In this document: in pieces, positions 1,056-29,590 of the stretch
How the letters are laid out: each line of letters begins with the position of its first letter
Position numbering within the stretch: the first letter of the stretch is position 1
From: a virus
Length of the DNA stretch: 33,279 bases
IMG/VR virus record: IMGVR_UViG_3300009449_000018
Location: 1-33,279 of that record
Direction: 5' to 3' (one strand)
Made by a program: the position numbers and the translations under genes
Notes under the pieces: generated by a model
Seen by the model: the letters and a program-made list of their open reading frames with translations, nothing else
Databases searched by the model: none
Told to the model about the DNA's origin: nothing

Positions 1056-1079
1056 GAAAAAAAGATTCTAGGATAGTAT
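1052..1079 (+). promoter_or_regulatory. Weak candidate sigma70-like promoter before the ssDNA-binding gene
   Basis: TTGAGA at 1052-1057 (five of six matches to TTGACA) is followed after 16 nt by TAGTAT at 1074-1079 (four of six to TATAAT). It lies in the 48-nt gap that separates the WavE-like gene from the Whirly-like gene, the only real gap in this otherwise packed arm. A second AT-rich box (TATAAA, 1084-1089) is too far from the -35-like element. Such matches occur by chance in AT-rich DNA. Confidence 0.22.
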
Positions 1080-1103
1080 CTCTTATAAAATCAATAATAT
1101 ATT

Positions 1104-6147: not shown

Positions 6148-6151
6148 GATA

Positions 6152-12100: not shown

Positions 12101-12901
12101 CATTTTTGCCCCCCTTAAATTATAGCTTAATGAGTCAACTGTAGGTAAATAATTTATTCCAGTTAACACTCCAGTTGCTTGGCGACCAAACGCGTCGTTA
12201 GAGACAACCTCTAGCGCAAGAGTTCTGTCTAGATTTAATTCTGTTATTGTGTCATTTGACACTATAAAAGAAAAACCCGTATAAGCGTCCATCATATCAG
12301 ATACCGATGCGGTATTGAGAGTTGACTGAAGAGCTACCGAGCTATTCAATTGTGTATCAGAGATTACATCGCCATTTTCTGTGTTTCTTATTTGCAGAGA
12401 AAAGTCTCTTAAAAGCTTATCGCTGAGCAGTTCGTTGCCCAACGACCTTCCTTCCTTCGCGTGGCCTGGAGGGGGAGATAGTCTCCATTCTATTTCGACA
12501 TTTCTATTAATATACTCAGAATTAACTGCTAATAAATTACCGCTCTCAGAAGGTTCTATTTCGATAGTGCTTCCTATGTTTGAATCTTCTGGAAGATTTG
12601 AAACTTTGATTTCAGAAAAGGTAAAAGTATCATCAAATAACGGTGGGCTAATCGATATTTTTTCCTCAATAAATTCAGAACGAATGCCTACGTCGCTTAC
12701 TGCAAATATTCTGATTGAAAATGTACCGTAATTACCATTCAGCGATATGGTCTTCTGCGCGGTTTCTCCTTCAAAATCTACAAGCTTACTCCCTTTCCCT
12801 AGGTTGTATTGAAATGAGTAATTGTCGGACGAGCCAATGACCTCGTAATTAGCCTTGAGATCGTTTACATCAAACTGAATTCCTATTGCGGTAGATAGCA
12901 T
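6152..12901 (-). CDS. Giant tail-tip / receptor-binding protein with FnIII-like, carbohydrate-binding-like and beta-roll modules
   Basis: This 2249-aa protein starts 3 nt after the I-J fusion and probably holds what is the C-terminal part of gpJ in other phages. In order it has: FnIII-like beta domains at the N-terminus; modules resembling CBM5/12 (pattern W/Y-x-GD-x-V-x5-Y/F-x-C/A) near residues 312-362, 542-580, 649-692, 800-854 and 1749-1825; a clearer FnIII pair at about 1062-1203; the helical AAITNAKIHNLTADKI segment typical of central tip proteins (about 1500-1520); a short collagen-like GAPGPTGKTP; a beta-roll of IGGG-type repeats (about 1964-2067); and a Trp/Tyr-rich end (2141-2237). 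It most likely extends from the tip and contacts the host surface. The followed S74 protein may help it fold. Confidence 0.75.
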   Translation of the reverse strand: MLSTAIGIQFDVNDLKANYEVIGSSDNYSFQYNLGKGSKLVDFEGETAQKTISLNGNYGTFSIRIFAVSDVGIRSEFIEEKISISPPLFDDTFTFSEIKVSNLPEDSNIGSTIEIEPSESGNLLAVNSEYINRNVEIEWRLSPPPGHAKEGRSLGNELLSDKLLRDFSLQIRNTENGDVISDTQLNSSVALQSTLNTASVSDMMDAYTGFSFIVSNDTITELNLDRTLALEVVSNDAFGRQATGVLTGINYLPTVDSLSYNLRGAKMSFSWSSQDTDFYAAQISSLAIPGDEEIYDPYNLQQSIDHYESLSRAPIWEKHNNYRVGDKVVHNSIVFECIQNYIYSSFPDVNTSDTSYWTNIGPVIDHSFTQENITENNKEFNQTWGYNYYYSFVPIDGYGTGVRTNLTETGLHPGGALNPFKSDVKIDNLNFIERDDDLIFRWNVTDQDNNLVDLNQYKFLVGSTDKPSILGISGSLYDSDTNLFLTGITEGLNSRTSVTENGVESISEDLPGTKVFETYEYTREINNSIYKVGGFPAHQDFSYSGQYNNGDHVIFENSLYRATSETALSSDKLMTPLVSPWSPGINYLFRTGLHHSDSFSYASGVYSVFGTVNNEIIGPDASDVIGLYNELESYSIGDLIISPNGNTEIYKGGKFFDVGDSVLYEGSLYTCIIQQESSDYISPGTGINHWKTASAFSNVSADIYKAIAAVPQSSEILPSTGYTHWQVQNPETSNKYYLLAENYDFPIRNWSQLDDFSSADFVVYANDIWSGVDSSGPNTPAGSRVPNLSNNSYWANTDNQSSDFSTSHQVGDKVFSNGAIYKCLANNPTGAPLEAVVDSASQINSSYQASQWIPYWELNTGFDDRIFKHEGIPESGKRSVGLELAILSPLGQILNSRKIVGNNPEPSILPQGFQVDSLSNVTQVHFNFNYAYGSREQTTKIQLYRSSDPVFSILDSNGFPGSGAGSFVSEILGPGDSTFGENITSITDSPPIPNIPGLGHQITGYYYKLLPFDSFGSGDLFNVTDNQGSLERVLVYPHGYNNQNENGYMGPVFSTTEDAIPGPVKDFKGDTAFRNYFLNWKMPDAEFNSANNIINTSPNDISHYEVWESEDNYLYFGTEDTTLDETRNLSGYRRITGDLTSIGPIPSEINDPASGITNATNVLNISAISPSVQVTHQGEPNDKRYFWVRSVDHAGNKGPFTGDANLGSSNDIIGLDLTLGQARTTDVSDFEQNITQTFPNTLALVPNNPFTANQPYGGEVSWDRHFVYNDGVGYVIGGSDTHDLKTSQGLSTAKYIYWKSGDMSALTAEQYSMLGLAAPGDKVVRLIDAEIDGAQNITSNQFSIKETDYDLGTNNQYNNHYIRFKNGLLDTQERKISNYQRFSNYATITLDRSFSQPPLNGDGIEILEEVAVSSAITNPLRSIQFSGQYRVSDYHPAGEGETSDPSAYAGPDMDSEKPSLLDDNDFIIARNAGGIPTPMWHAFANATIGTAHIEEAAITNAKIHNLTADKIRSSVIQSQDIQVGGDANSGQIRSAGFGLLNNSGTRGYDCVDAPGAGFAISGNGSFIFKTERGKLFFEEDELTIHGNIRQKDGSELTVMSMNAEPSVFNYEETADGIFKPELNQTSNITVRFNNSDITENDVRFKMELPDGTNVFNYTDYSNGYNTHGFEYQPNNTYFNSDTQVATATFKVGNKETNTAGFDKIIHGNDDIIDFQSVIIYASGIGTSTEHSTTVSVLANGAPGPTGKTPVYRGVWDSTKNYIGMEDGIQGSDTAEELRGDLVYYDNPSSPAGGNGHHYIAMKNSGPSSLVVAPGTHAQTDDYWKKFGAEFQSVATNLLLADNAVITHSLTMGSSDDDNPATNGAGGLIQSSDFVGGFDADGSLSASEDYSIAGFKLHKSATPPNDVYFDVGGPGVNYHSTSNPDDYSYIRYGSASKKIEIQGSFVNNSSRESVSFAATTSTDSQATFIGGGYENEIHKTASNLNSLGSSIVGGGLNNITGRFSFVGNGYNNNVGDNFSAIVAGYDNSMPDIDIDNNGANIIGAGSKNKIDGGSQQGVFAGRNNKIIYNPPVRDFGTYINSVWSSQQRRVVIGSDFYILNTNHLGGGSLNPEITASTPVGLSTAWSEGYYVDNVWFCDRLAAPTQMFMGNNAHSNHWVYAEDFLNISGKDYWLLYFPDFGSKPVTFWGFIAPLAAHALGGWAYFDPIRSPTSEGFWLWFSGVSSWVFIYNTSADAGFYYISTTQTTGYIP
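6700..7012 (-). repeat. Beta-roll protein repeats (IGGGxxNxIxG type) in the giant tip protein
   Basis: About six imperfect repeats of the form hydrophobic-x-GGG-x-x-N-x-I follow one another: FIGGGYENEI, IVGGGLNNIT, FVGNGYNNNV, IVAGYDNSM, IIGAGSKNKI, VFAGRNNKI. They resemble the left-handed beta-roll repeats of YadA-like adhesin heads. Shorter copies recur in the next gene (about 5900-6040), just before its S74 domain, so both proteins may share one trimeric stalk design. Confidence 0.6.
10340..11970 (-). repeat. Tandem carbohydrate-binding-like (CBM5/12-type) modules
   Basis: Four modules within the giant tip protein share the pattern aromatic-x4-5-Y/F-x-x-GD-x-V-x4-6-Y/F-x-C/A-x-n-W. The segments are YRVGDKVVHNSIVFEC, YNNGDHVIFENSLYRA, FDVGDSVLYEGSLYTC and HQVGDKVFSNGAIYKC. 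Each is about 40-55 residues and ends in a Trp. A fifth lies near 7425-7655. This pattern is typical of the small three-stranded modules found in chitinases and in many phage adhesins. Sugar binding is expected but not shown. Confidence 0.6.
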
Positions 12902-12904
12902 TTC

Positions 12905-15900
12905 TTATATCGTTAAATCGGTTAATATCAAAGTGTCAGGAGCTTCTGGAATTCTCATGTCCGCTTGAGGGGGTATAGGCATAACTGGTTGCCTGACGAC
13001 AGTTTGCTTGTCGACTGCGTCAAATTTAGATTGATTATATTCAAGACCAACAACTTCATACTTGTTATGAGATTTTTCTTTTACACTCATTGTTCTAAAA
13101 AGTTGCCCCTGCAAGGATCTTTCAACCTCGGAAACAGGGGGAGGGATGAAATTGATTTTCCCAAAGGATGTTATGCTTGCAGAGCTCAGCCTAGAAACAA
13201 TAGCGGAAGAATTTTCTAATTCAAATTGATAATCATTTATTTTTATTAACCGCCAAGGATTAACGGACGTCGTCCACCTTTTATCTACATTATCGTACAC
13301 ATAAACAACATTTACATAATCATCAAAATCCCCAGAAGAATCTATTACATCTTCAACAAATACTTCTTGCCCATCCTGTATGACCTCTGTGTGAGTTTCG
13401 CTAAGGTTTATTCTTATGGATTCCTTTGCTTGCAGCGAAGAAGCTGCGCTTAAATAATCAAAAGAATTTATATCTACTTCCTTGTAATAGCCCGACCCGG
13501 TCAAAGTTTCTCTTCTTTGGTTAAGCGTTAAGCCCCCCAGATCCGAAGGAGAAGAATTTGTTAGGTTGGATCTTGGAGTGCCTACTATTTGATTTATAAT
13601 ATTCGGATGCCTAATAAAATAACCCGAGACTCCAAAAGACTTTTGAACAATAATGTATTCAACATTGTTTAAAGTATAGCTATCTCCCACCGACCTTGAA
13701 GCGTCAGAGTCGTAAACAAAAAACTCGCACACGCTATTTCTATCATCGTAATAAGGTATAACCCACCCACTTGCGGTACTGGATTCAGAATATAATGAAT
13801 AAAAAAACCAAAAGGTATCTTTAAGCGAATCGTTGGTCCATACCCAACCGTTAGAAGAGCTTCCCTTTGATGACGAGGTGTAAAACCAAAAACCATCGTT
13901 TCCTGAAGACTTTCTTAACTGTCCAAGATATATCCAACCGAACTGCGTGACATACGCCCAATCATTGCCAAAAACGCGAACCCAACCAAGCCAGTCTGAG
14001 ATCTTCCACCCTGGAAACTTCTTCGTGTCTTCGTTAGACTTTAACTCTAACTTATCTACGACCGCCTGTTCGAGCTCTTTGTCTGTTTTCGCAGCCATCA
14101 CGCCCTTTGCGCTCCAAGATGAGCCGATCATTATTTTAGTCAAAGCCTCTTTTGTTTTTTCTTGATCCTCCGGGCATATATAATGCAAGCCTCCATCGTT
14201 TCCAAGAGAATCTAAACCTTGGCTTGAAACATTTACCTCATCCCCTCCTGCAGAATAGCTTATTTTGAAAGTGTGTTTTGTTGAATCTTTTACATAATAA
14301 GCGGTGCTACCTCTTCTACTCATGCTAATCCCAGAAGGAAGAGATCCCTCTGTTGTAAATCTAACTCTATCTCCGTCGGCAAAGCCGTGATTAAATATTG
14401 AAAACGTATTGTCTGACAAAGACAGCTCAAAAGGAATTTTTAAAGAAAAGCCTCTCGCTATTACATTTTGTCCCTGGGGCCCTTTTTTTGTTACCTCCGA
14501 GTTGTAACCAATAGAGCATTCAAATTTAATTACCTGAGGAACTAAAACAGACTCTATTTCGGCATCCTGATCAAGAGAGGAGCGCTCAAAAGGAGCTCTT
14601 AAGTTTATTTTCTCTTCCGTAGAATTAGCTAGACCAGTACATACTGTCAATTCGACCATAGATACGAACGGCTCATCAACCATATGCTTATCTAACAAAA
14701 TATATGGGCTATATACATCAAAAGATTTTTTCAAAACTCTATCCTGACCAGACTGCTCAAATTCATATTGTTTTGTATAAAAATTTACATCCAAAACCCT
14801 TCCGCTCTTTGACTTACCCACCCTCATTTCATCAGAAACTTCGAAAATTGATCCGGGATATAAATATGAAGCCTCGACAGAAGTCTCAAAAGAAACAGTT
14901 TCTGTTTCTAGTTGGGTGGTAAACAGAACCCACTTGGCGAGTCTTCTTGCTTGACTGGAGGATGTTACCCCAAAACCAAGAGTCTCCTTTTCTTTGAACC
15001 CAAAAGTTCTAACTGCATTTTTATCTTCTTCTTGAGCGGTTGCAGGCTTAAAGCTATCATCTTTATTGTTATATCTAACGATAGAGCTTGTTATTTTTTG
15101 ATCCTTACTTACCCCAGAGTACGAAAAACCATCTTGACTTACGTTTGAATTATTAAATAATTGAATAGGATTCTTATATGAATCTTGAATCGCCATTATT
15201 TTTCCATTATAAAAAGTAATAATCCCCCTAAATACAGACGCCATATTGTTAATAAGCTGAAGAGCTTCCATTTCATCAGTTATATACAAGTTAGAAGTAA
15301 ATCTTGGCTCGACTATAGCATGATTGATTTGAACCGCGCAACCACCAATCGTCTTGATAGAAGCTCCCTCTTGAAACGATGCACTCAAACCGCTTAAATC
15401 TGGACCCGAGACAATGACAGTGCCTCCCCCACTTTTATTTGGATTGCTTGATATAATGTCTCTCTGTTCTATTTTGATTTCGCCAGATAACTGAGTAGCT
15501 CTTGATCGCAATTGCTGTATGGCTTCGCTTTTATTTGTTCCCGTCAAAGCCGAGATATCCTGGTTTCTTGATGGAATAAAAAAAGCTATCTTTTTCCCTT
15601 TGAATTGGTTTCCCGTTCCAAAATCTTTGATAAAATTATCGGAGCTATATGATGCTTGGTCTATAGTTATGCTAAAAGAGTCTAGTTTGCTATTCGGCTC
15701 AACCACCGAGTTAAAATTTATAGGAGAACCAGAAGAGGTTTCTATTTCGTAATCGGTTCTAACCAATTCGTCGCAGTATTTTGATATTCTATACAGCTGC
15801 CATCGATCGATATATTCTTCATATAGACCGTACTTCCCAACCCCATATCTAGCATTAGATAATAAATCATAAAAAACCCAAGCAGGATTATCCGTCCAAT

Positions 15901-17569
15901 ACTTGTCTTCATCGCTTACAGAATGTATGGACGAAAGAGAATCCGGCTGCCCCTTAAACAATCCATCCCAAGGCCCGTCATAATGCTTTGAGATTGGATC
16001 ATAATTCGAAGGAATTAAAACTTTCTTTAACCTCGCATGATAAGATCTATCGGGTAAATTTGAAAAATTCTTACTGTCGAATTTGAGTTTGACGATAGCG
16101 CTATAAGGATAAAGCAGAGGCTCTTCTACGTATTCAGCAACGGAAGATAACTTTAAACTTCTGTCTCTGCCTATTCCCCCTAACGCTCCTTTTACCGAGG
16201 GATCATATTCATTGCTTAACTTTATTAATTTAAAAGTTATACCTTTAGAGCTTATTTTTGGGCGATCAAATTCAATAATAACATCAAAAGCATACATCGA
16301 AGTGCAGAGGCCTGTAACAATAAACCTATTGCTTTCGTCGGTGGTTACGGCTCCGTTCAATGAATCATCAAACTTAACGATACAACCAGAACTTGGAGAT
16401 AAGACATTGTGTTCGACATAGTCCTTTTCCATTAATATTGCAAATTGAACATTGTTTTCCTGATTACTACCGTCATCGTTCTGTATCGACAAAGTTGTGT
16501 TCATTTCAATTCGAATTTTGTTAACGTTTTTGTTTGCCACAAAATGAGCTGCTATTTTGGCTCCGTTTTTCTTTGCGCTTTCTACATCAGGCCTATGCTC
16601 GGCTCCCCCCTCGTTTTTTGTGTAGGGTCCGGCTCCATATAACAACACGGAATGATCAACAACAAAACAATTAAAATCTGAAATAATCAAAGTGTCTTTT
16701 TCTTCTCCTGTTTTGATCACAGGAGCCTCGCCATTTTCATTGAGTATATAATTCGCAGTTCCAGTCTCGGCTTCGCTTATTGGGGTATTCACAACAGGCA
16801 CATTGTTTAAAAAAATACCCTCCCGAAGGTCGTAACCCAAGACCTTCTGCACTAGTCTCTCAATAATGCCAGAACGACTAAGGTTTATTAAGTTCCCATT
16901 TTGATCACAAAGTCCAGCTATCGGACCTTCACTCAATAAATCCAAAAACTCTATCTCGGTATAAGACTCTAAAACATGAGGCTTTCCTGGGACGTTTTTT
17001 CTTTTTGAGAGTTTGTGTTGAGATATATTTGTTGAACCTATTTTTAATCTTCCATAACCTAAAGGTACTGCAACGCCTTGACTTTGCCTATTAGCTATTC
17101 CCTTGAGCAAATAAGATTTTGTTGTTGTAGGGGTTTTTCTTTCGGGCGGCTTAAATAACGCTTTCATTATCGCCCCAACAACAAAAGACACAGCAACGGC
17201 TACAACTATTTTACCAACAAGAGTTAATCCGCCCGCAGTTGTTCCACCAACAAACATAATTGACATTATAACTGCCGCATTGCCTTGTGGCGCGGGAACA
17301 ATATGCATTTCTTGCTTCTTGTCCCTTATCTCAACCATAGACTCGGAGATCATATGCTTTTTTAATTCTTTTTTTGATGAAATATCGGTCGGAGATTTAT
17401 TTAAAACAGCATAATCAATACCGCCCGATTGACTTTTGGCAAGATACTCAAGAAACCCCTCCTTGTTAGCGTCTATAGCGGCAAAAACCTCCACAGCTGA
17501 GTCCGCGTTCAAGGTCCACTTTCTACCAAAGCGCTTTCCAAGCTTTCCATATAAATATACTGTTTTCAT
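12905..17569 (-). CDS. Tail tip attachment protein: gpI-like domain fused to gpJ (central tail fibre)
   Basis: This 1554-aa protein combines two lambda genes. Residues 1-145 match tail assembly protein gpI: a ubiquitin-like start (YLYGKLGKRFGR) and a long hydrophobic glycine-rich stretch (about 93-140). From about 148 it is gpJ: a conserved VPLGYGRLKIGS strand, IEFLDLLSEGPIAGL (about 203-217), and the hub domain with INNMASVFRG, FSYSG, SIVRYN, FGFKE and LYPGSIFEVSD (about 770-920). Added modules follow: a GDRVRF...LPSGIS...YYV beta module (about 1057-1127) and a Trp/Tyr-rich block (about 1190-1266). Lambda gpJ has about 1130 residues. Upstream, AAGGTT-TTAA lies just before the ATG, one of the few SD-like sites. 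It forms the tip hub and probably contributes to receptor contact. Confidence 0.85.
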   Translation of the reverse strand: MKTVYLYGKLGKRFGRKWTLNADSAVEVFAAIDANKEGFLEYLAKSQSGGIDYAVLNKSPTDISSKKELKKHMISESMVEIRDKKQEMHIVPAPQGNAAVIMSIMFVGGTTAGGLTLVGKIVVAVAVSFVVGAIMKALFKPPERKTPTTTKSYLLKGIANRQSQGVAVPLGYGRLKIGSTNISQHKLSKRKNVPGKPHVLESYTEIEFLDLLSEGPIAGLCDQNGNLINLSRSGIIERLVQKVLGYDLREGIFLNNVPVVNTPISEAETGTANYILNENGEAPVIKTGEEKDTLIISDFNCFVVDHSVLLYGAGPYTKNEGGAEHRPDVESAKKNGAKIAAHFVANKNVNKIRIEMNTTLSIQNDDGSNQENNVQFAILMEKDYVEHNVLSPSSGCIVKFDDSLNGAVTTDESNRFIVTGLCTSMYAFDVIIEFDRPKISSKGITFKLIKLSNEYDPSVKGALGGIGRDRSLKLSSVAEYVEEPLLYPYSAIVKLKFDSKNFSNLPDRSYHARLKKVLIPSNYDPISKHYDGPWDGLFKGQPDSLSSIHSVSDEDKYWTDNPAWVFYDLLSNARYGVGKYGLYEEYIDRWQLYRISKYCDELVRTDYEIETSSGSPINFNSVVEPNSKLDSFSITIDQASYSSDNFIKDFGTGNQFKGKKIAFFIPSRNQDISALTGTNKSEAIQQLRSRATQLSGEIKIEQRDIISSNPNKSGGGTVIVSGPDLSGLSASFQEGASIKTIGGCAVQINHAIVEPRFTSNLYITDEMEALQLINNMASVFRGIITFYNGKIMAIQDSYKNPIQLFNNSNVSQDGFSYSGVSKDQKITSSIVRYNNKDDSFKPATAQEEDKNAVRTFGFKEKETLGFGVTSSSQARRLAKWVLFTTQLETETVSFETSVEASYLYPGSIFEVSDEMRVGKSKSGRVLDVNFYTKQYEFEQSGQDRVLKKSFDVYSPYILLDKHMVDEPFVSMVELTVCTGLANSTEEKINLRAPFERSSLDQDAEIESVLVPQVIKFECSIGYNSEVTKKGPQGQNVIARGFSLKIPFELSLSDNTFSIFNHGFADGDRVRFTTEGSLPSGISMSRRGSTAYYVKDSTKHTFKISYSAGGDEVNVSSQGLDSLGNDGGLHYICPEDQEKTKEALTKIMIGSSWSAKGVMAAKTDKELEQAVVDKLELKSNEDTKKFPGWKISDWLGWVRVFGNDWAYVTQFGWIYLGQLRKSSGNDGFWFYTSSSKGSSSNGWVWTNDSLKDTFWFFYSLYSESSTASGWVIPYYDDRNSVCEFFVYDSDASRSVGDSYTLNNVEYIIVQKSFGVSGYFIRHPNIINQIVGTPRSNLTNSSPSDLGGLTLNQRRETLTGSGYYKEVDINSFDYLSAASSLQAKESIRINLSETHTEVIQDGQEVFVEDVIDSSGDFDDYVNVVYVYDNVDKRWTTSVNPWRLIKINDYQFELENSSAIVSRLSSASITSFGKINFIPPPVSEVERSLQGQLFRTMSVKEKSHNKYEVVGLEYNQSKFDAVDKQTVVRQPVMPIPPQADMRIPEAPDTLILTDLTI

Positions 17570-17590: not shown

Positions 17591-17947
17591 CTATACACTT
17601 ATATTGCCATATATACCAAATTCATCATCCCTAATGCTATAGATCAAAAATGGGATACATAATTCATCAGAATATAACTTATCTGTAATAGATGGATTTA
17701 CTGAGCAATTCACATGAGAATGATAAACATATAAAACTTTATTTTCTATAAAAATATTTAAATTAATCATAAAATGATGCTCAGGAAAAGGGCTTTCGTT
17801 TTTGCAAGGCAAAACCTTTAGGCCTGAAGTAGACTCAACGATCAATCCGCAACTCTCCTCAGTTAAAGACCGCAAGCAATAAGTCTTAACCTGTTCGAGT
17901 ATAGTTTTATGCAGCTGGATATCTTTCTGTGCCCGGGAAACCTCCAA
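17591..17947 (-). CDS. JAMM/MPN-domain metalloprotease (gpK-like, without NlpC/P60 domain)
   Basis: This 118-aa protein has a complete JAMM zinc motif: Glu in EESCGL (30-35), then H76-S-H78, a 7-residue spacer, S86 and D89, which fits E...HxHx7SxxD. Lambda gpK carries a JAMM domain followed by an NlpC/P60 peptidase domain. Here the protein stops where the second domain would begin and the next gene is the I-J fusion. All zinc ligands are present, so it may be active. The gene starts 41 nt before the end of the gpL-like gene, as L and K overlap in lambda. Likely role: tail-tip assembly, or cleavage of a tail component or host factor. Confidence 0.75.
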   Translation of the reverse strand: MEVSRAQKDIQLHKTILEQVKTYCLRSLTEESCGLIVESTSGLKVLPCKNESPFPEHHFMINLNIFIENKVLYVYHSHVNCSVNPSITDKLYSDELCIPFLIYSIRDDEFGIYGNISV

Positions 17948-18986
17948 ACCTTAATCCTTTATGAGTTATGTTTATTTTGTTATAATCGGTGATATTCCTA
18001 GACCCGCCCAAAGAATCCAAATGAGACTCAGAGAATCTTTTCTTGCAAGAGTCTATTGTTTTCTGACATTCGTCTTTTACCCAGTGATTATTGTCAAAAA
18101 ACGGTATATGATCGGATGCAATAGCGTGGGTTTTTATACATAAAAAAACAACGGGCGTAGATTTATAAGGGTCAGCCGAGCTTTGTGGAATTATTTTAAC
18201 CAATGAGCCAGAGTCGTATCCGCCAGGAACTAGCTCGTTATCCAAAAACCCATGCTTGCTCCACTTGGGAATATCGTCTAATCCATTGCCGTAATTGTTA
18301 TGGGCATATTTCTGAGTTAGATCTCTGCCTTCGCTATCTTCTATAGCTAGGCCTTTGTACCCACAACCAATAGAGCATCTATACATCCAAGAGCAGTGAG
18401 ACGGCATTACTATTCTTGCTGGAACACTTGATCCTTGAAGCTCTAATGAAGACACAAGTTCAAAAGTAATTACATTTTTGTTTTCTATTGTTTTCTTGTT
18501 TATAAAAAATATATCATCAGGAAAGTGTGAGTTCGGATCGGATTCGCCAAAAGGATTCTTTCCTGATTCGTTTAAATTCCTATTTTGAAAGTTTTCATCA
18601 TCAAGAAATTTAACAAAAGTTCTCTTCCTGGTAACCTTGCAATTGGCGAAATCTTTATTAGATCTAATAATTTTAGATAAAAGCCCCTCGGGGTTAGCTA
18701 TTGAAATTGTTGGCCTTGGAAGCCTTCCGTCTGACTGACTCTCAAAACCCTCCATTTTTACAGGTAAAGGTTGATAGGCATTCCCCTGCCAATAAACAGG
18801 GTTGCTTGAATTCTTCATGGGGCAAAACCTATATATAGCATCTGCGCCCAGATTAACTCCGTGTAAATCCTTAAGCATTTCAAAGTTTGACTGAAGATTG
18901 CTAAAATCGATTTCGTACATATCCACGACCGAATCGGGAGTGATTGAAATTAATTGCTTATTAAAATTTGATTCTGATTTTGCCAT
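17907..18986 (-). CDS. Minor tail protein gpL-like, Fe-S tip protein with inserted module
   Basis: This 359-aa protein matches lambda gpL. It has the HCSWMYRCSIGCGYKG segment (C198, C204, C208), DECQKTIDSCKKRF (C307, C314), and near its end the family's LRFGGFPGT. Lambda gpL uses four cysteines to hold a 4Fe-4S cluster; C198, C208, C307 and C314 are the likely equivalents, and the C307-C314 spacing equals the lambda one. Between the two pairs lie about 98 residues where lambda has about 22. The extra segment contains YDSGSLVKI, VVFLCIKTH and NNHWVKD, the pattern of a small carbohydrate-binding-like module. The protein should form the tail-tip cap next to gpJ. It overlaps the next gene by 41 nt. 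Confidence 0.85.
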   Translation of the reverse strand: MAKSESNFNKQLISITPDSVVDMYEIDFSNLQSNFEMLKDLHGVNLGADAIYRFCPMKNSSNPVYWQGNAYQPLPVKMEGFESQSDGRLPRPTISIANPEGLLSKIIRSNKDFANCKVTRKRTFVKFLDDENFQNRNLNESGKNPFGESDPNSHFPDDIFFINKKTIENKNVITFELVSSLELQGSSVPARIVMPSHCSWMYRCSIGCGYKGLAIEDSEGRDLTQKYAHNNYGNGLDDIPKWSKHGFLDNELVPGGYDSGSLVKIIPQSSADPYKSTPVVFLCIKTHAIASDHIPFFDNNHWVKDECQKTIDSCKKRFSESHLDSLGGSRNITDYNKINITHKGLRFGGFPGTERYPAA

Positions 18987-18988
18987 AA

Positions 18989-21277
18989 TTATTTTTCTGC
19001 TGCGACGAATATTTTCAACTCACCTTGTTGAAGATCGCTTGAAGCAGAGCTTCTTATATATAAATCTCCAAAATAGTATTTATTTACAAGACCAACAAGA
19101 ATAACGTCTGAATTATTGTCTATTATCTCGTCTGTAAATCCATCGATCAACGAAACATTTACGTCCGAGTTATTTATTCCATAAAACTCAATATCAATAT
19201 AGCCTTCCTCTCCTGCCTCGATTGTGGTCTTTTGATTATTGATAAAGAAATTCTCAATCGCAAATTTACCGCACTCCCTGTATGCAGTATTAAACGGCTC
19301 ATTTACTCCGGATTTTATTTGTCCTCTGTTGTTTTGAAAAAAAGTGTTTGGAACTGAATTAACTATTTCGGATCTGTAGTTACCAGGGGAACCCGTGACC
19401 ACCGTAAACATCTGCCCGCCGTCACTAACGCCAGGTGTATAAGACTTGCTTAGTTTTATTGTTTTGCCGTTTAGACCAAAAGGAAAACCGGCAGACGGAA
19501 GGCTATATATGTAATCTTCTCTATCAAGGCCTTCGCCAACAAAAGGAACGTTTGCGCCTCCGCCCTGCCCTATAATAGAAAAAGTCCCAATGTCTCTCTC
19601 TATCGCTTCTGCACTAATTAACGTCAAGGGCTTATCTCCTATATTCATCAATTTAACCCTGCCCTTTCCTTTTTCTCCGGGAATTATTTGTTCTCCTTGG
19701 TCCTTGATCGAAAACGACAACGGAGAGGTGAATATCAATTCTCCCTCTGCCAATTCTGGAGGAGTGTCTAAATTGGTAAAATCCTGCTCATCTATATTAA
19801 ATGGAAACTGCTCGAATCGAGCAGATATGCTATGATTATTTTTGTAATTATAAGTGTGGCTCCACTCCTGACACACAAAGTTTTGCTTTCTATTGTATGG
19901 GGCGGGAGGCGTAAAATTAAAAGGTTTGTACCCTAGTCTTTGCTCAAGGAAATGAAGTATAGCGTAAGCTTCCTCATCATCTCTATTGTTGAACTGTAAG
20001 TCCAAATTTAAAAGGCTTTCATTTATGCCGTCGTTATAAATCTGAAGGTATCCTCCTAGTTCTATTTCGTTCATTCTTGGCTTTTGATCAACGCTTAGTC
20101 CTAAAGATGGCTTCCAAAAGAAATCGCGAGTCCAGTAACCTGTATGTAAATCTTTCTTGTAATCAAGCCTGCCATTAAAACCCGTAGTTATCTCAGAAGG
20201 AACTTTATTACTGGTACTTGAATCGCTGTGCCAATAATAGTATGAATGGTTTCCAGTATAAAAAGCTACATCATTTTTTTCGTAAACCATTGTCGGGTCA
20301 AACGTTTCTGCTTTCCTTATGAACAACTGCTCGGATTTCCTCAATGAAGAAGTATCCAAGTTTCTGAGCTTTAAACTTATATTATTGCTGTTCTCAAAAC
20401 TTAAAGCATGATTAAATTCTGAGCAATAAAAAGTCTTAGCTTCATTTTCTGTCGATCGATAAGGATTAAACATCGCGTTTCCGTCCCATCGAAACCCTGA
20501 TATTCCTTGTTTATATTTAAGATTAGGAGAGGAGGCGTCAACCTCTAATTGCCCCAAATGGTTTTCTACAAAATGTATTATAGAATTAGCTTCTTTATTT
20601 GTTCTGTTGTCGAATTTTAAATTAACCTCAAACGTTAATGCATTTATGCCTTTTGGCTGCAGAATATAATAACCATTACCATACTCATGCTTTATATTAT
20701 TTGCCTTAAAATTAACTGTTGATCCATAATCTGCGTCGTAAAAAAACTTATCGCTTGTCCACAAATCTGGATTAGATTCAGGATACGCATTGATTGTTGA
20801 GATTGTTAGAACATTAGCAGACGAAGGTTCGTAATTTTCTATAAAACTAGTCTCAGATGTCCCTTTTATTTTTATTGCTGCACCAGTTAAACCTTGAACG
20901 GTGGTACTTGTATAATTTTTTTCTATATTTAATATAGAATAAGTTCCATCGCTAGACCCAGTAGACCCAGCTATATTTATTATATTTCCAGGGCTAAATG
21001 TTGCGTTTAGATCGTCGGGCCTATTAAACTCATCAATAATATAATGAGAATTAGCTGCCACCTCGTGAGGAAGCAATGTAAATCTTTGATCGTCTGAGAC
21101 AGAGACTCCGCCGCCAAAAACCATATTTTGCTTTGCGTAATAATACAATCCATCACCCGTAGCATAAACAAAATCAAATTGTTCGTAATTTTGCCCTGTT
21201 TGAAAAACCCCGCTATAATTAACAAGGTTTCCCATTCTTCCTTCAGAAGCGTCCGAGGCTGGAGCGGAGATTGTCAT
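18989..21277 (-). CDS. Minor tail protein with two gpM-like domains and extra modules
   Basis: This 762-aa protein sits where lambda has gene M (109 aa). Residues about 415-495 match gpM well: ILHFLEQRLGYKPFNFTPP, then VCQEWSHTY and ARFEQFPF. Residues about 211-306 carry a second, diverged copy (NLKFDNRTNKEANSIIHFVE, YCSEFNHALSF, LKLRNLD). A carbohydrate-binding-like module starts the protein (about 19-55, YEQFDFVYATGDGLYYYAKQ), and a similar aromatic block precedes the second gpM copy. The C-terminal third includes an ASH-like beta domain (about 513-571) with GRVKLMNIGDKPLTL. The two gpM domains may occupy two ring positions of the distal tail, with the extra modules displayed outside. No SD is visible. 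Confidence 0.7.
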   Translation of the reverse strand: MTISAPASDASEGRMGNLVNYSGVFQTGQNYEQFDFVYATGDGLYYYAKQNMVFGGGVSVSDDQRFTLLPHEVAANSHYIIDEFNRPDDLNATFSPGNIINIAGSTGSSDGTYSILNIEKNYTSTTVQGLTGAAIKIKGTSETSFIENYEPSSANVLTISTINAYPESNPDLWTSDKFFYDADYGSTVNFKANNIKHEYGNGYYILQPKGINALTFEVNLKFDNRTNKEANSIIHFVENHLGQLEVDASSPNLKYKQGISGFRWDGNAMFNPYRSTENEAKTFYCSEFNHALSFENSNNISLKLRNLDTSSLRKSEQLFIRKAETFDPTMVYEKNDVAFYTGNHSYYYWHSDSSTSNKVPSEITTGFNGRLDYKKDLHTGYWTRDFFWKPSLGLSVDQKPRMNEIELGGYLQIYNDGINESLLNLDLQFNNRDDEEAYAILHFLEQRLGYKPFNFTPPAPYNRKQNFVCQEWSHTYNYKNNHSISARFEQFPFNIDEQDFTNLDTPPELAEGELIFTSPLSFSIKDQGEQIIPGEKGKGRVKLMNIGDKPLTLISAEAIERDIGTFSIIGQGGGANVPFVGEGLDREDYIYSLPSAGFPFGLNGKTIKLSKSYTPGVSDGGQMFTVVTGSPGNYRSEIVNSVPNTFFQNNRGQIKSGVNEPFNTAYRECGKFAIENFFINNQKTTIEAGEEGYIDIEFYGINNSDVNVSLIDGFTDEIIDNNSDVILVGLVNKYYFGDLYIRSSASSDLQQGELKIFVAAEK

Positions 21278-23077: not shown

Positions 23078-26000
23078 TCAGTCACTCAACAAGCCTCCTG
23101 GTCGCTGCTCGTCCATTATCACAGAAATAACTTGTTGTTTTACTTTTTCCGCCAACTGCGTGCTTTTTTCTTGATCTTCTGACGAGTCTTTTGGATTGGC
23201 TCCTGCTTTATCATCCTTTTTCTCTGATTTCCCACTTCCCTTGTCCATATTAACCGTTATATTAATATTATTTGTATTTCCGCCAGAAGTTCCAGTTTCT
23301 GAGTTTTCTGTTAAGGGGGTCACTGCTCCACCATCATTAAATTTTCCTGCATTTATTCGGTCGAGCATTGGCTTGCCAAGTTGTCGAGCGCTACTTGCTC
23401 GAATTACATATTCTCCTTCGCTGAGCATTGCGGGAATTTGATCGATGCCAGACTTGCCAGCTATGTGGCCGCCGTTGGCATAACCATTTATTTTTCCTCC
23501 TCTATAAACAGCTCTTGACTCCTGGATAGACGTTGGGCTAAAAGGGCTGTAATTGTCTTTAACGATTGAGCCAAAATCAAAGTCGTTTTCAAAGGGTTGA
23601 TTTATGCTCATCGCCTCAGTTCTTGACATGCCGGTTTCTAGCATTGTTTGATTTACTGCGGCTGAGTCTATGCCAGAAGATTTGCCCCAAGAATCAAGCA
23701 TTGATTTTTCTCCTAGTGCTCCAGATTCAGCAAGGCCCTCAAGGCCAGAGGAAACCATACTTCCAATTCCAACACTCAGAGCGGTACCTACGAGCATTTG
23801 CATTAAAGCTCTTTTTTTGGCTTTTTTCTCAGCCTCTTTTCTCATTCTTTCTTGAATGATTCCTTTTGTATATTGAGTATCCTCTTGAAGTCCTAGGTTT
23901 CCAGATTGTCCGCTATAGAAAAACCCAGACATTGCTTGAGATTGATATCTTCTTCCTGTGTTGTAACCTTCTCCTCCTCCAAAGTTTGCAGCAAGAGCGG
24001 ATCCTGGCTGAGGCTCGTCTGGCTTACCTCCAGTTGAATAACCTGGAAGTTTTCCGCCTGCGTTTAATCTATGCATAAATCCGCCACCGTATTTCTTCAC
24101 AGCGTCGCCACCCATTACATATTCGCCATTAGTTACCATTGCAGGAACTCCGCCTCCTTTAGAATATTTTCTTACTCCTCCTCCGCTAGAAAACGGTAAA
24201 GCTCCAACGATTGCATCGGCGGCTTTGCCAAGGTATGCTTGTTGAATTGCTCCAAGAAAATTCATTGCAATATTATTCATAACATCGCTCAAGTCATCGG
24301 CTTTATTTATTGCTGCTTGCATACCGTCAACAAGGCCGTTTCTAAATTGATTTGTTAATTCACCACCAAGTCTAAACTCCATCGTTTCAGCTTGCTCGAC
24401 AATTCTTTTTTGAGCGTCCCTAGCTCCATTACGCATTGCGCCAGGTCCGGTTTCGTATTCCCTCTTAAGTTTTAATCTTTCCTTCTCTTTCTCTAAGAGT
24501 TCTTGGGCGCTTGATATTTCTGTTTTTGTCTCTGCGTTTATGTTTTTTATTTTTTGTTCGATTTCGTCTAGGTTCTTTTTTCTTTCTTCTTGCGAATTTA
24601 AAAGCGCATCATACTCTTCCCAATCAGCCTCGCTTTTTAGTGTTATTTGGCCAGTCACCATACCCTCAAGCCTTTTTTCCTTAAGTTCGTCCCGTTTCTT
24701 TTTTGTATCCAGTCCGGCGAGTTTGTCTTTTTGATTTTCTTCGAGGGTTGTGATTTTAGATTCTAATTTAAATCTTTTCTCGGACATTGCAAAACTTTCT
24801 CTTTCTCTACCGGTTTGATATCCTGGGCCTACAGCATTCAACCTTCTTGCTGCGGCAACTTGTTCGGTAAAACCTCGGATTTTCTGGGAAGACTGAAGGC
24901 CTTCTGAAGACATGCGGTTTTTTCTTTCTAAATCTTTTATAATTTTATTTTCTGTCGCAACATAAAGATCTTGGCCCAATACTCTCTTAGCCGAACCTGC
25001 TTGTGATATTTTACTTTGTCTTGCTAGAGTTTCGTCAGACCGCTTTTTGTACACAAGAGATTCTATAGCTGCGAGATCTTGAGGGGAAACTCCATCTATC
25101 TCTTTTAATTTACCCACAAGCTCTTGTCCGCTCATTTTAGAGTAAGGTTTTGTAACATCTATTCTTGATATTCTGTTTTTTTCGCTAGCCTTGATGCCCA
25201 TCTTCTTAGCTAAGTCACTCCTGACCGAGCTCTGCATACTAGGAGATCGTTTCACTAAAGTCATTAAGCCCTCCTTAAGACTAGAGTCTGCACCCCGAAG
25301 AGAAGAATCTAATTTTTCAGCGGCAGAATTCAGGGCTTTTTTGTATTTTATTTGCGCTTTCTGTTGTTCGGTTATCGCGCCACCCATCACTTTTTCTTGA
25401 AAATCTAAATTTTCAGAAATTTGCCGATACTTATCTTTTATTCTTAATTGAGCCAATGCGGATTCTTGCTGTGAAACTAACATCGCTTTCTGATGGTTTA
25501 ACTTAACAATCAAACCGCGAACTTCCTCTTTTCTTAAATCAGCAGATTCATTTTCAGCTTTTCTTTCCCCAGCCATAAAAGACTCAAACATGACTTTTTT
25601 TCTTGATACATCAGCTTTCTCTAATTCTTTGGCATACTCTTTTCCCGTCCCTTTAAATTCGCTGCCTGCCTCAGCTCCTTTTGCAGAAAAAGTATAATCG
25701 GAAGGTAATGCGCGCAAGGCGTCTGAGAGTTTAGAATCCAGATTAGTATTCATAATTTCATTCATGACTTTAACTTTTCCTTGAGCTTCGGGATCTTTTT
25801 CTTTTTTGTAAATCGTTGAACTTGTTAAAGGATCAAAGCCTTTTGCGACGTTTATGGTTTTTGAATTTTCTTTTTTTATTTCCTGATTAAGTCTATTGTA
25901 GCCCTCTCTAAAATCTTTTAAATGTTTCTTAGCTTCTGGGAAATCTGAGAAAAGAGAAACTAAAGAGGACCCCATGCTTTTTGAATAGTCTAAATCGTCT

Positions 26001-29000
26001 TTCGCTTTTTTAATTGCGGCCTCTTCAGCCTTGCCTAACCCATCAACTAATCCGTATAAACCTCCAACAGTAGCTCCTATAGCTGTGCCCAGCGGACCAA
26101 ACATCATTCCCATTGCTGCTCCGCTACCAGCCCCTTGTAGAAAACCTCCGGTGGCTGCGCCAGCCGTACCCCCAATTGCGTCTTGCGCAAAACCTGCAGC
26201 CATAGGCAAGCCCATCATCAAACCCATTTGCCCACCAGTGCTACCAATCATTCTTCCCGCCCTCGTTCCAGCAAACCTTGAGCTTGCGTTTTGTAGCCCA
26301 ACGCTTCTCGCGGCTCTTTGCGTAGCTGCTTTTAATTTTTCTGTGGTCCCAATTAATTGATTTGTTTTTTTGGCTACTCTGTCTTGAGCGCTAGAACTTA
26401 CGTTGTATTTGTTCCCAAGTTTTTGCATCATCTCTTGCATTTTCTTATGAGGAACCCTGCCCGTTTCAAATCTTTTTATAACACCGGCAATAGCTTTGTT
26501 ATACTTTTTAGCGTTGCTCTCCGTTTGGGATTGCGCACCACTACCTCTATAACCAACCACGTCAGAACTTGTAATTTCTGGTGCATAATTCGGCACGTAT
26601 CCATTTGCAGCGCCAAATACATCTTTCAATCCATTTGGTTCGTCGTCTGTATTGGTTACGCCCAGACCGATTGGATTACTTTTATTCATTAGTGCTGAAT
26701 GAGAGCCAATTCTTATTTTCGAAACAGGAACGCCAGCTTCTTTTTCTCTACCTATTGCATCAGATAATGGGTTGGCGAAGTTGGGGATGTATCCGTGAGA
26801 TTTTAATTGACTATTTAAACCTACCCTAGAAAATTTGCCGCTTTGTAAAGACTTAAACCCTGCCTTGCGAAGAAGAGTTGTTTGTTCTTCGTTGCTACTA
26901 CTCCATGGTTTGTCGCCAACAAAAAGGCGGCCATCTTTTCTAGACAATATACCTTTATTTAGATCAGATGTTTTGCTTAAGTTAGGAGCGCCAGCTTTAC
27001 CAAACCTAACATCATATATTTTTCTAGCGAATGATTTAGCATTTTTTATGTTTGTGTTTATTTTAGCTTCAGCACCTTTCCTACCTTTGCTACCAGGAAC
27101 CCCAAACAATTTATATAATTCTTTATTTCTTGGCAAATCAATTCTTGCACCTTGATCTTCTGTGATTTTATCGGTCTCTCCCACACCGCGTATAATGCTT
27201 TTTGCCACAGCCTCAAAGATATGGCCCGAAACAACAGCCATTTTACTTTTTGGTAAATCACTGTTCATATTTGATTTATCCATAGAAAAAGTATCACCTA
27301 GGGATAAACTATTTAAAATTTGATTAGTAACCTCAAATCCCTTATTTTGAAGTTTTTCATTTATTTGGTCTTCGAATCTTTTTGAGCCTCTTTTTTTATC
27401 TGATTCATCTAAGGTGTAAAAATCAAAAGCGACTTTAGCGCCCTTACCTTGATTGGGATTCGCGGTCTTTTTTCCTTTAGCGGGAGCATGAATATCTGTA
27501 AATCCTTTTGGTGGAGATCCGTCAGACCTAGCTTGGTAAACTCCACTATCTGCAACACCAGGAACAACATAATAATAGTTACCAATTTGATCTGAACCTC
27601 TAGATGCGGCGAGACCAACATAATTAGAAGAATTTTGATTAATACCATATTGAACTCTTCCCTGTTTAGCTGTAAACTTAGAAGTTCTCGGTTTAATTTT
27701 CTTAAAATTAGGTATATATCCTCCCGCAGCATATGGATCAAATCCATGTATACTACCAAATGCTTGTTGATAATTCTCTCCAGCCTTACTTGACTTTGGA
27801 GGCATGATCGCAGGTTGACTCATCCCCTTAAAATTCTTTACTTTTTCTGCGCTGTTATATATTACCGAGCCTTCGCCAGGCATATTCATACTTCGAATAC
27901 TTCCAGCAGCATATCCACCTCGCGCAGCTTGCTCGCGTTCTGGATCTGCAAAATTTGGAATGTGTCCGCCCGCTCTTCCCTTTCGAGGAGCAAGGCTTGC
28001 ATTGTACCCTTTCGTGTATAAACTAGCGGCAACACTTTTTGATACAGAGTTCAACATGTTAGCTTCAACAACTTGAGCCTTCAAGAGTCCAAGGATTATT
28101 TTTTCCTTTTCCGTTCTTGAAATATCGGTTCGCAACATTTCCTTGCTTATCGCTGCGTTTTGCCCAAATAAAGTAACAAGAGAAGTTTGTATTGCTTTTT
28201 GTTTATGAGCTTCGCTTGTTACCCCAATTAAAGATTGCAGACTTTGATTCGCATAAACCAAAGCTTTAGCAAATAACTTTATAAATACTGCGGAAATAAC
28301 GACCAACCCTGGACCAGTTATGATATTACCCAAGCCCTTTAAAAAACCTTGAGCGAAATCGCTACCAGTGGATTCTCCACCGCCAAGCATTTCATTTGCT
28401 CCTTCAGCCAGTCCCTTGAAAACATTCAAAACCTTTTCCATTCCTGGAGCAAGCATGATTTCTCCAATCTGTGCGCTTAATTCTTTTAAAGCTATTCCGG
28501 TTTCTGTGGCCATTGCAGACATGGTCTGCCTTAATTGATCGTTTTTGTCTATAGCTTCTGTGGTGGCCCCTGCAGAGATTTGAGTAGCGTTTGCAAGTAT
28601 ACCGTTTTGCTTTGCAGCGTCACTCAGTACAGCTTTTAATATATTGATTTGAAAAACTCCACCAACCGTCTGAGCTATTTGTGCTTTTTGGGATTCCGTA
28701 AGATGATCAAAAGTGTTAGCGAGATCGGTTAAAATTCTTCTTGCGCCAATCGTATTGCCTTCCAAATCTCTTACAGCGATACCCAGATTTTCCAATTGAT
28801 TTAAAGTGTCTGTTCTTCCTATTCTTGTGAAAATTGTTTTAAATGAGTTTCCGATTACTTTACCACCTCGAGCAGTTTTTTGTTGTGCTGCAGTAACCAG
28901 ACCTACCAACTCATCAATATCCACTCCAGCACTTTTCGCAGCCTGACCCGTTCGAGATATCGCATCAGCAAAATCTTCTGCACTAACAGCAAATTTTACA

Positions 29001-29590
29001 TCAACCGCAGCGAATTTACTTACAAGTTGAGTAGTGTCTTTTATTTGATCTCCATAAGTATTCATGGCCGCAGTCAAAGCTTTTACTGCGTTTGCAGAAT
29101 CCATTCCAGTTAATCGAGTCAAAATAAGAGCGTCTCGAGTTCTTTTTAAAGACTCCTCCATCGTCAAGCCTTGACGAGCATACTCGGTAGCCGCTTCAGC
29201 GGCAACGTTAAAAGCTGCTCCGGTTTCCTTGGCGGTTTTAAATAAGCCGTTTGAGAATTTTTCTAAATTCGCTGTAGATAAATTCATAACTACATTGATA
29301 TCAGCAAGAGCTTTTTCGACTTCAACAACATTTTTAACTAAAGCTTTAAAGCCGTCAGCTACTCCATTGATTATCGCCATACTCGCGCCAAACGCAATGA
29401 TACGAGCGTTAGCAGCTTCCATAGATTTGCTAAACTCGTCAGCTCCACGCTTCATATTCCCAAGCGGCTGGGTAGCTCCCTTGTCATCCACCGTTATTTT
29501 GATCGGTGTTTTGCGAATACGGTTTACAGCCGCTTGAACAGCCGCTTCAAGCGGCTGTGTATTACCTTGTACGTTGAGATTTATAGACAT
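23078..29590 (-). CDS. Tape measure protein with GYIPNFA motifs and an embedded nuclease-like domain
   Basis: This 2170-aa protein sets tail length and is injected ahead of DNA. Residues about 55-410 match the TP901-type core (GKVIGNSFKTIFTRIGR, ENLGIAVRD, QTVGGVFQ). Hydrophobic segments occur at about 415-445, and a glycine-zipper stretch at about 1103-1187 (GAATGGFLQGAGSGAAMGMMFGPLG...) could insert in a membrane. Four related motifs stand at 541-548 (GGHIPNFA), 623-629 (GGYIPNF), 933-939 (GYIPNFA) and 997-1003 (GYVPNYA). Between the second and third lies a segment with E793, D818 and E841-A-K843, a PD-(D/E)XK-like signature. Coiled-coil helices fill 1190-1780. Two repeats with IPAM/VPAM and NGEYVM or SEGEYVI occur near 1813-1840 and 2046-2080. 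A hairpin precedes its start. Confidence 0.85.
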   Translation of the reverse strand: MSINLNVQGNTQPLEAAVQAAVNRIRKTPIKITVDDKGATQPLGNMKRGADEFSKSMEAANARIIAFGASMAIINGVADGFKALVKNVVEVEKALADINVVMNLSTANLEKFSNGLFKTAKETGAAFNVAAEAATEYARQGLTMEESLKRTRDALILTRLTGMDSANAVKALTAAMNTYGDQIKDTTQLVSKFAAVDVKFAVSAEDFADAISRTGQAAKSAGVDIDELVGLVTAAQQKTARGGKVIGNSFKTIFTRIGRTDTLNQLENLGIAVRDLEGNTIGARRILTDLANTFDHLTESQKAQIAQTVGGVFQINILKAVLSDAAKQNGILANATQISAGATTEAIDKNDQLRQTMSAMATETGIALKELSAQIGEIMLAPGMEKVLNVFKGLAEGANEMLGGGESTGSDFAQGFLKGLGNIITGPGLVVISAVFIKLFAKALVYANQSLQSLIGVTSEAHKQKAIQTSLVTLFGQNAAISKEMLRTDISRTEKEKIILGLLKAQVVEANMLNSVSKSVAASLYTKGYNASLAPRKGRAGGHIPNFADPEREQAARGGYAAGSIRSMNMPGEGSVIYNSAEKVKNFKGMSQPAIMPPKSSKAGENYQQAFGSIHGFDPYAAGGYIPNFKKIKPRTSKFTAKQGRVQYGINQNSSNYVGLAASRGSDQIGNYYYVVPGVADSGVYQARSDGSPPKGFTDIHAPAKGKKTANPNQGKGAKVAFDFYTLDESDKKRGSKRFEDQINEKLQNKGFEVTNQILNSLSLGDTFSMDKSNMNSDLPKSKMAVVSGHIFEAVAKSIIRGVGETDKITEDQGARIDLPRNKELYKLFGVPGSKGRKGAEAKINTNIKNAKSFARKIYDVRFGKAGAPNLSKTSDLNKGILSRKDGRLFVGDKPWSSSNEEQTTLLRKAGFKSLQSGKFSRVGLNSQLKSHGYIPNFANPLSDAIGREKEAGVPVSKIRIGSHSALMNKSNPIGLGVTNTDDEPNGLKDVFGAANGYVPNYAPEITSSDVVGYRGSGAQSQTESNAKKYNKAIAGVIKRFETGRVPHKKMQEMMQKLGNKYNVSSSAQDRVAKKTNQLIGTTEKLKAATQRAARSVGLQNASSRFAGTRAGRMIGSTGGQMGLMMGLPMAAGFAQDAIGGTAGAATGGFLQGAGSGAAMGMMFGPLGTAIGATVGGLYGLVDGLGKAEEAAIKKAKDDLDYSKSMGSSLVSLFSDFPEAKKHLKDFREGYNRLNQEIKKENSKTINVAKGFDPLTSSTIYKKEKDPEAQGKVKVMNEIMNTNLDSKLSDALRALPSDYTFSAKGAEAGSEFKGTGKEYAKELEKADVSRKKVMFESFMAGERKAENESADLRKEEVRGLIVKLNHQKAMLVSQQESALAQLRIKDKYRQISENLDFQEKVMGGAITEQQKAQIKYKKALNSAAEKLDSSLRGADSSLKEGLMTLVKRSPSMQSSVRSDLAKKMGIKASEKNRISRIDVTKPYSKMSGQELVGKLKEIDGVSPQDLAAIESLVYKKRSDETLARQSKISQAGSAKRVLGQDLYVATENKIIKDLERKNRMSSEGLQSSQKIRGFTEQVAAARRLNAVGPGYQTGRERESFAMSEKRFKLESKITTLEENQKDKLAGLDTKKKRDELKEKRLEGMVTGQITLKSEADWEEYDALLNSQEERKKNLDEIEQKIKNINAETKTEISSAQELLEKEKERLKLKREYETGPGAMRNGARDAQKRIVEQAETMEFRLGGELTNQFRNGLVDGMQAAINKADDLSDVMNNIAMNFLGAIQQAYLGKAADAIVGALPFSSGGGVRKYSKGGGVPAMVTNGEYVMGGDAVKKYGGGFMHRLNAGGKLPGYSTGGKPDEPQPGSALAANFGGGEGYNTGRRYQSQAMSGFFYSGQSGNLGLQEDTQYTKGIIQERMRKEAEKKAKKRALMQMLVGTALSVGIGSMVSSGLEGLAESGALGEKSMLDSWGKSSGIDSAAVNQTMLETGMSRTEAMSINQPFENDFDFGSIVKDNYSPFSPTSIQESRAVYRGGKINGYANGGHIAGKSGIDQIPAMLSEGEYVIRASSARQLGKPMLDRINAGKFNDGGAVTPLTENSETGTSGGNTNNINITVNMDKGSGKSEKKDDKAGANPKDSSEDQEKSTQLAEKVKQQVISVIMDEQRPGGLLSD
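26583..27970 (-). other. Candidate cargo region of the tape measure, bounded by GYIPNFA-type motifs
   Basis: The four motif copies divide residues 541-1003 into segments of about 75, 300 and 57 residues. The longest holds GHIFEAVAKSI (789 onward), ARIDLP (815-820) and GAEAKIN (839-845). An early helix Glu, an Asp at a strand end and an E-x-K on the next strand, about 23 residues on, are the order of a PD-(D/E)XK nuclease core. The first segment contains a beta-rich YVGLAASRG and YYYVVPG. Nuclease activity is inferred from this pattern only; a structural role is possible. Confidence 0.4.

Follow-up and report, generated by a model that had tools for sequence, protein, structure and literature searches.

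The window analysed here is the whole of a 33,279-nucleotide stretch of viral DNA (IMG/VR virus record IMGVR_UViG_3300009449_000018), and it encodes on its minus strand a tape measure protein (TMP) of 2170 amino acids (23078-29590) that carries an array of cargo between copies of a short peptide motif. We propose that the middle third of this protein is a magazine of exchangeable, effector-like domains held between conserved peptides, a reading that we consider probable though well short of certain. The assignment as a TMP is given by a PhageMin_Tail domain (PF10145, E 7.6e-29; residues 119-311, 28658-29236), which is the conserved N-terminal part of the family, and by matches to tape-measure PHROGs, the best of which covers residues 49-400. 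The gene belongs to a lambda-like tail cluster with, downstream, Phage_min_tail (18989-21277), Phage_tail_L (17907-18986) and Phage-tail_3 (12905-17569).

All four motif copies listed in a preliminary description of this DNA are where it had placed them: GGHIPNFA at residues 541-548 (motif 1, 27947-27970), GGYIPNF at residues 623-629 (motif 2, 27704-27724), GYIPNFA at residues 933-939 (motif 3, 26774-26794) and GYVPNYA at residues 997-1003 (motif 4, 26582-26602). Motifs 2 and 3 are the left and right borders of a swappable, nuclease-like cargo domain (residues 630-932, 26795-27703). On either side lies a linker element conserved among relatives, from motif 1 to motif 2 (residues 549-622, 27725-27946) and from motif 3 to motif 4 (residues 940-996, 26603-26773). 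A chance origin of the four copies was rejected: when the protein was shuffled 20,000 times, the pattern [IVL]PN[FY] was absent from 19,379 shuffles, occurred once in 611 and twice in 10, and never reached three copies. The 18 other open reading frames (ORFs) of the window that were checked hold one match, FLPNYE in the ORF at 4722-5525, without the preceding glycine. Since the codons differ among the four copies, these do not look like recent duplicates.

The preliminary description had raised the possibility that the motifs are module borders and had proposed a comparison of segments among many TMPs. Such a comparison strongly supports this role: breakpoints fall at the motifs, both between the window and its relative L008 and across pairs of TMPs, the flanks are conserved and the interval is variable. 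The DNA of the window and L008 is 97.7% identical over a run of 5572 nt that stops within motif 2, at codon 628. Alignment is lost from there to codon 935, within motif 3, and a stretch of 77% identity then extends as far as codon 1003, where motif 4 ends. Identity is regained at codon 1680, and the 8.4 kb that start at codon 2037 match at 97.3%. The same three break points, within six codons, were found in L006, L021, L009 and L010. In L006, L008 and L021, residues 1-540 are 95-99% identical to the window and the cargo 14-36%; with identical copies set aside, the region 541-629 is 77-95% identical across the relatives compared. L202 displays the reverse pattern, with 82-85% identity over residues 630-870 of the cargo, 48% over 871-932 and 25-64% beyond residue 1003, and its alignment with the window DNA is continuous between codon 600, close to where the L202 contig ends, and codon 1003. 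A cargo this close in a protein that differs beyond residue 1003 indicates that cargo and frame have different histories.

When alignments between 175 TMP ORFs were scored for how far their ends in the motif region lie from the nearest motif, a distance of 12 nt or less applied to 2867 of 3652 ends, as against 428 for random positions; the pairs are not independent of each other. Because a conserved motif beside a conserved flank by itself draws alignment ends, the near-identical pairs give the stronger figure and carry the argument: for hits with at least 95% identity the count is 37 of 41 (3.7 expected), and for those with at least 90% it is 138 of 147 (14.3 expected). Separately, near-identical relatives also have other sequence in place of a second variable block (residues 1004-1679, 24554-26581), for which there is no DNA alignment to L008; on the left this block starts at motif 4, and on the right, where identity is regained at codons 1680-1749 (L006, L008, L021), there is no motif.

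The motif G-[FY]-[IV]-P-N-[FY]-A, in multiple copies, defines a family of TMPs whose phages are mostly uncultured. A search based on the TMP itself yielded 29 loci, chosen by relationship and not by motif; 25 of their 260 ORFs of at least 200 amino acids have two or more copies, and all 25 are the matched TMP. In IMG/VR, scans with degenerate codons for GYIPNFA and GFIPNFA gave at least 119 and at least 120 stretches, respectively, partly shared. A scan of a genome collection gave 107, four of which have ORFs with two or more copies (L190, from a metagenome-assembled genome (MAG) of Verrucomicrobiales, L202 and L239, from Flavobacteriaceae MAGs, and L256, from a Woesebacteria MAG). The resulting set holds at least 219 ORFs with two or more copies, at least 210 of them distinct in sequence, with some contigs fetched twice and some ORFs cut by contig ends. 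Their layout is regular: the first copy lies near residues 520-660 in 121 ORFs, 99 of which have four to six copies, and at residue 532-654 in 116 of the 119 ORFs that do not start at a contig edge. The 330 residues upstream of motif 1 were aligned from 103 of the 121 distinct ORFs, leaving out 18 from L001-L029; PhageMin_Tail matches 98 of these stretches, mean column identity is 33%, and identity to the first row is 37-66% for 97 of the 102 others and 14-17% for five.

In 822 distinct motif contexts the residues are, in order, A (40%), A/S (76%), any residue, G (82%), F/Y (70%), I/V, P, N, F/Y and A (73%), of which PN and the classes of its flanking residues are fixed by the search pattern itself. 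The codons vary freely, with 664 distinct 21-mers in 852 contexts, so that selection acts on the protein; a conserved DNA site was rejected on the same count. Certain linker words, such as GSAIFNQDM, LAVTNTRDEP and GTMVANTSE, recur within 80 residues after the motif across different TMPs and may be docking modules themselves.

The cargo family of the window is hypervariable and under purifying selection. The interval falls in a cluster of 138 distinct inter-motif segments (cluster 0) that is present in 127 of the 175 TMP ORFs with at least three motifs. In the window it has a net charge of +25 over 303 residues and a G + C content of 0.359 (26795-27706), as against 0.414 for residues 1-540. 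Four residues to which the preliminary description had drawn attention, E793, D818, E841 and K843, lie in the interval from motif 2 to motif 3, in a core with an E-D-(D/E)xK signature (residues 789-857, 27020-27226; G789, E793, D818, E841, K843, K857), and they are kept in homologues, in a first alignment of 70 segments and then in one of all 138. In the latter, E or D stands at the position of E793 in 130 segments, D at that of D818 in 131, D or E at that of E841 in 131 and K at that of K843 in 132, and the signature of D and [DE]xK is complete in 128. It is absent from ten, among which L063, L299 and L331 look like other domains, so that single linkage evidently drew in unrelated segments.

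A 117-row alignment was built from 116 of the 138 segments and the window, which replaces the identical segment of L001; eleven further signature-bearing segments were left out of it, and the ten misfits were omitted from it as well as from a further alignment and from the hhalign profile, an omission that helps the conservation seen. In these rows G789, D818 and K843 are invariant, the position of E793 holds E in 113 and D in 4, and position 841 holds D in 65 and E in 52. Mean column identity of the family is only 10-14% (10% in the 117 rows). The ratio of non-synonymous to synonymous substitution rates (dN/dS) between the window and L202 is 0.17 for residues 630-870, 0.10 for the core and 0.27 for the whole segment, with a median of 0.24 over 19 cargo pairs at 70-93% identity. 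Compared by hhalign with clusters 1-28, cluster 0 joins only clusters 12 and 16 (probabilities 92.9 and 93.8), the other 26 remaining below 32.

A conserved signature, purifying selection and basic charge are what a metal-dependent nuclease would show. Judged by these features of the sequence, the window cargo appears nuclease-like and membership of the PD-(D/E)XK enzymes is probable: the order of a helix with E, a D, a strand with (D/E)xK and a helix with K/Q, and its spacing, are those that we take to be typical of compact members. A loose regular expression for the signature matched the first members of 6 of the 76 other clusters, as against 2.0 on shuffles with a maximum of 6; since shuffles reach the same figure, we do not claim the signature for other clusters.

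Sister TMPs hold unrelated enzyme-like domains between their motifs. The inter-motif segments of at least 90 amino acids comprise 297 distinct sequences in 77 clusters, 48 of them with a single member, and Pfam searches with one representative of each of the 77 clusters gave nine families at E ≤0.01, each in one member and three of them firm or close to it. The clearest is a staphylococcal-type nuclease (SNase, PF00565) in L124:8760-9344 (minus strand), with an E-value of 1.9e-9, above the Pfam cut-off; residues 10-124 of this segment align with solved staphylococcal nucleases over most of the domain (E 1.7e-4). The same cargo matches positions 1098-1272 of PHROG 8809, a family of 2317 positions and unknown function, so that some long proteins of the PHROG set may carry an SNase cargo too. 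A cytidylyltransferase-related domain (HIGH_NTase1_ass, E 6.2e-8, above the cut-off) was found in L288, whose cargo had no sequence match in the PDB; the inter-motif segment there (L288:4163-6148, minus strand) extends over 662 residues and holds a Walker A motif besides the cytidylyltransferase-related region. L282 gave HATPase_c_3 just below the cut-off (E 3.8e-5), in a cargo of 570 residues (L282:5327-7036, plus strand) with an HExxH near its end.

A P-loop family is represented by 18 segments, which occupy the first, third or fourth visible slot in different TMPs; several of these TMPs are cut by contig ends. The loop [GA]P[AS]GxGK[ST] occurs in all 18, and profile matches to ATPases in the PDB centre on it. 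The alignment behind this profile was built from the 14 segments that fit a strict Walker A, so that its invariance reflects this selection; in the remaining four, A replaces the first G. Labels assigned by eye to other cargoes (HAD phosphatase, kinase-fold, GNAT, ADP-ribosyltransferase, zinc peptidase) were not borne out by Pfam, which gave no useful E-value on five representatives, and they serve as leads only.

TMPs leave the tail and help to form the passage of DNA into the cell, and a mechanism can be sketched on this basis. The window cargo (residues 630-932) would be a basic domain resembling metal-dependent nucleases, with an E-D-(D/E)xK active-site signature of the PD-(D/E)XK type. 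Such cargoes are swapped by recombination with joints in or beside the motif codons, and the conserved TMP frame stays intact. The cargo would travel in the tail with the TMP, would enter the cell envelope or cytoplasm together with the phage DNA as the TMP leaves the tube, and might then act on nucleic acid of the host, of host defences or of rival elements; as part of the TMP, it would be on site as soon as infection starts. The motif, for its part, would work at the protein level, either by being cut during processing or by linking the cargoes so that each stays independent of the rest. It is conceivable, and we put it forward tentatively as something we would not yet bet on, that the TMPs of a widespread, largely uncultured group are effector polyproteins from which GYIPNFA, as a processing or release signal, frees enzymes that fold separately in the host at DNA entry, traded through joints in the motif codons and serving as a platform for takeover, counter-defence and rivalry.

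Several points weigh against delivered, nuclease-like cargoes. AlphaFold models of window residues 623-940 (pLDDT 79.5) and of a compact relative, L041:9794-10414 (pLDDT 86.8, pTM 0.82), have no Foldseek match at E ≤0.001 and no VIA match at Z above 3.8: the former gave nothing significant in Foldseek searches of PDB and BFVD or by VIA, and the best values for the latter were a Foldseek E of 3.4 and a VIA Z of 3.8 (RdgC, 54 residues). No PD-(D/E)XK enzyme was recognised among the structural matches listed (50 of 68, 15, 30 of 30, and 31), so that the fold search which the preliminary description had proposed yielded nothing in its favour for either model. Chains of the influenza polymerase among the matches of the window model were rejected as support, since they align near chain residues 581-652, outside the N-terminal endonuclease. 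Among the 25 of 39 Pfam families listed for the 117 members, in scattered weak matches, there is no nuclease, nor is there a solved one among the 15 PDB chains matched by the 117-member profile. Pfam gave no nuclease for ten further cargoes picked by eye for a PD-(D/E)XK-like appearance, and the six of them run on PHROGs had none there. Most segment clusters match nothing known. A folded domain of 30 kDa is hard to fit in a tail tube and would have to travel unfolded or sit at the tip. Moreover, residues 1004-1680 are basic as well (+29), and the window and L008 are unlike at residues 1004-1679, in a short stretch at codons 1961-2036 and at the tip of the tail fibre too, so that variability need not mean effector function.

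Pfam and profile searches of this kind miss many true PD-(D/E)XK members, and the fold is not excluded by the lack of a structural match. In the L041 model a helix (91-109) contains E103, D124 immediately precedes a strand of two residues, and the (D/E)xK (149-151) lies at the end of a strand (147-150) that is followed by a helix (156-168), an order of helices and short strands that we regard as compatible with PD-(D/E)XK, with rudimentary strands. What the preliminary description observed is confirmed and its interpretation partly supported: the conserved residues, together with the clear SNase of a sister TMP, speak for a nuclease-like cargo, and the structural comparison gave no significant match.

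Other explanations of the same pattern have to be considered. The cargo could be a structural or membrane-contact domain that is swapped to escape defences sensing the TMP or to fit new inner-membrane factors of the host. This would account for the variation of residues 1004-1679 and of the fibre tip in the same comparison, and it fits the host defence nuclease SNIPE, which is reported to associate with TMPs at the stage of DNA passage and to be escaped by mutations in the TMP (PMC13190303). Surface escape, however, needs none of the residues E, D, (D/E) and K that are almost always kept at 10-14% mean identity, and it does not lead one to expect the clear SNase and P-loop domains between the motifs of sister TMPs; we therefore consider this explanation rather unlikely. 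A selfish intragenic nuclease would cut TMP alleles with another cargo and spread by gene conversion in the manner of homing endonucleases, with the motif codons as repair flanks. The nuclease-like domain, its sharp borders, a G + C content below that of the rest of the gene and a history different from that of the frame are all in line with such an element. Yet the motif is conserved in protein and not in codons, some cargoes are not nucleases (P-loop, cytidylyltransferase-like, HATPase-like), and as the cargo keeps motifs on both sides its insertion would not destroy a site there, which makes this origin improbable.

A conserved carrier with hypervariable, enzyme-like tips is reminiscent of polymorphic toxins, and the cargo could accordingly be a toxin with a cognate immunity gene, directed against rival phages or cells. 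The TMP-related effector of a contractile injection system in Micromonospora eburnea is reported to have an immunity partner (PMC13277306). Against such a pair in the window stands the comparison with L008 over 33 kb, where the cargoes are unrelated and yet the DNA flanking the TMP is 95-98% identical, and we hold it to be very improbable. Exchangeable effector-like cargo remains the reading that we prefer.

Outside the TMP, identity to L008 is 97.7% over 3.7 kb upstream of the gene, 97.3% over about 8 kb downstream and 95% over window positions 1-5901 and 7163-14998. No gene beside the TMP co-varies with the cargo between window and L008, and an adjacent immunity gene was rejected for the TMP neighbourhood on this one comparison, the flanks being near-identical. 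Over the 33 kb, wholesale differences from L008 in genes other than the TMP are confined to the fibre tip. In the first 15 kb a single large break was seen (5901-7163), which has one 68% match of 128 nt inside and covers an ORF for an S74 chaperone and the C-terminal end of an ORF of 2249 amino acids, probably the tip of the tail fibre. The joint change of cargo and fibre tip hints at host adaptation and lends weight as well to the alternative of a host-contact domain. Upstream of the motif region the TMP itself has a hydrophobic, membrane-like segment (residues 417-448, 28247-28342). Plus-strand genes beside the tail operon (171-4750) match WavE, Glycos_transf_1 and Glyco_transf_9, and this is perhaps a phage-borne island for modification of glycans or lipopolysaccharide.

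We found no published description of the motif in titles and abstract openings on TMP cargo and effectors. Among 50,697 named phage records neither the region of motifs 3-4 nor the cargo of the window had a match, nor did one P-loop and one kinase-like cargo, and the SNase cargo had two partial matches; N-terminal TMP matches in named phages, in which the motif was not looked for, are all below 60% identity. The TMPs of siphophages are rulers and part of the route of DNA entry, and their enzyme domains are mostly regarded as tools for cutting the cell wall. If our reading is true, long-tailed phages would be able to deliver varied effectors at the start of infection, ahead of all phage gene expression; the delivery of enzymes into the cytoplasm by TMPs would become a directly testable question, and the peptide would be a simple handle for finding TMP cargoes in metagenomes. 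The exchange also bears on a survey of mosaicism in phage proteins, which reported TMPs as over-represented in sequence-based mosaicism and whose authors state that they were unable to confirm any genuine recent case in them (PMC10684548); in contrast, recent TMP exchanges with defined borders were seen here, which amounts to clear recent mosaicism in these proteins.

With regard to known systems, TMP-borne peptidoglycan hydrolases, which help entry through the wall, offer a first parallel, as they too place an enzyme domain within a TMP whose N-terminal region is homologous; the named-phage N-terminal matches include TMPs of the SPbeta type with a lytic transglycosylase annotation. The cargoes described here differ in that they look like nucleases or other enzymes of nucleic acids or nucleotides and are exchanged at a fixed motif. 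The window family has no detectable sequence or structural match to a known PD-(D/E)XK member, and the staphylococcal-type nuclease, found in the sister TMP L124, is a different cargo family from that of the window. The closest resemblance may be to effectors of the Sle1 type from actinobacterial contractile injection systems, which are TMP-related and have a variable C-terminal domain (PMC13277306). In both cases a TMP-related carrier bears diverse, exchangeable domains, one of which in Sle1 is reported to be toxic, presumably through activity on nucleic acids. Whereas Sle1 has one variable domain at its C-terminus and belongs to a bacterial contractile injection system, the phage TMPs hold several cargoes in the middle of the protein, each bordered by the conserved peptide.
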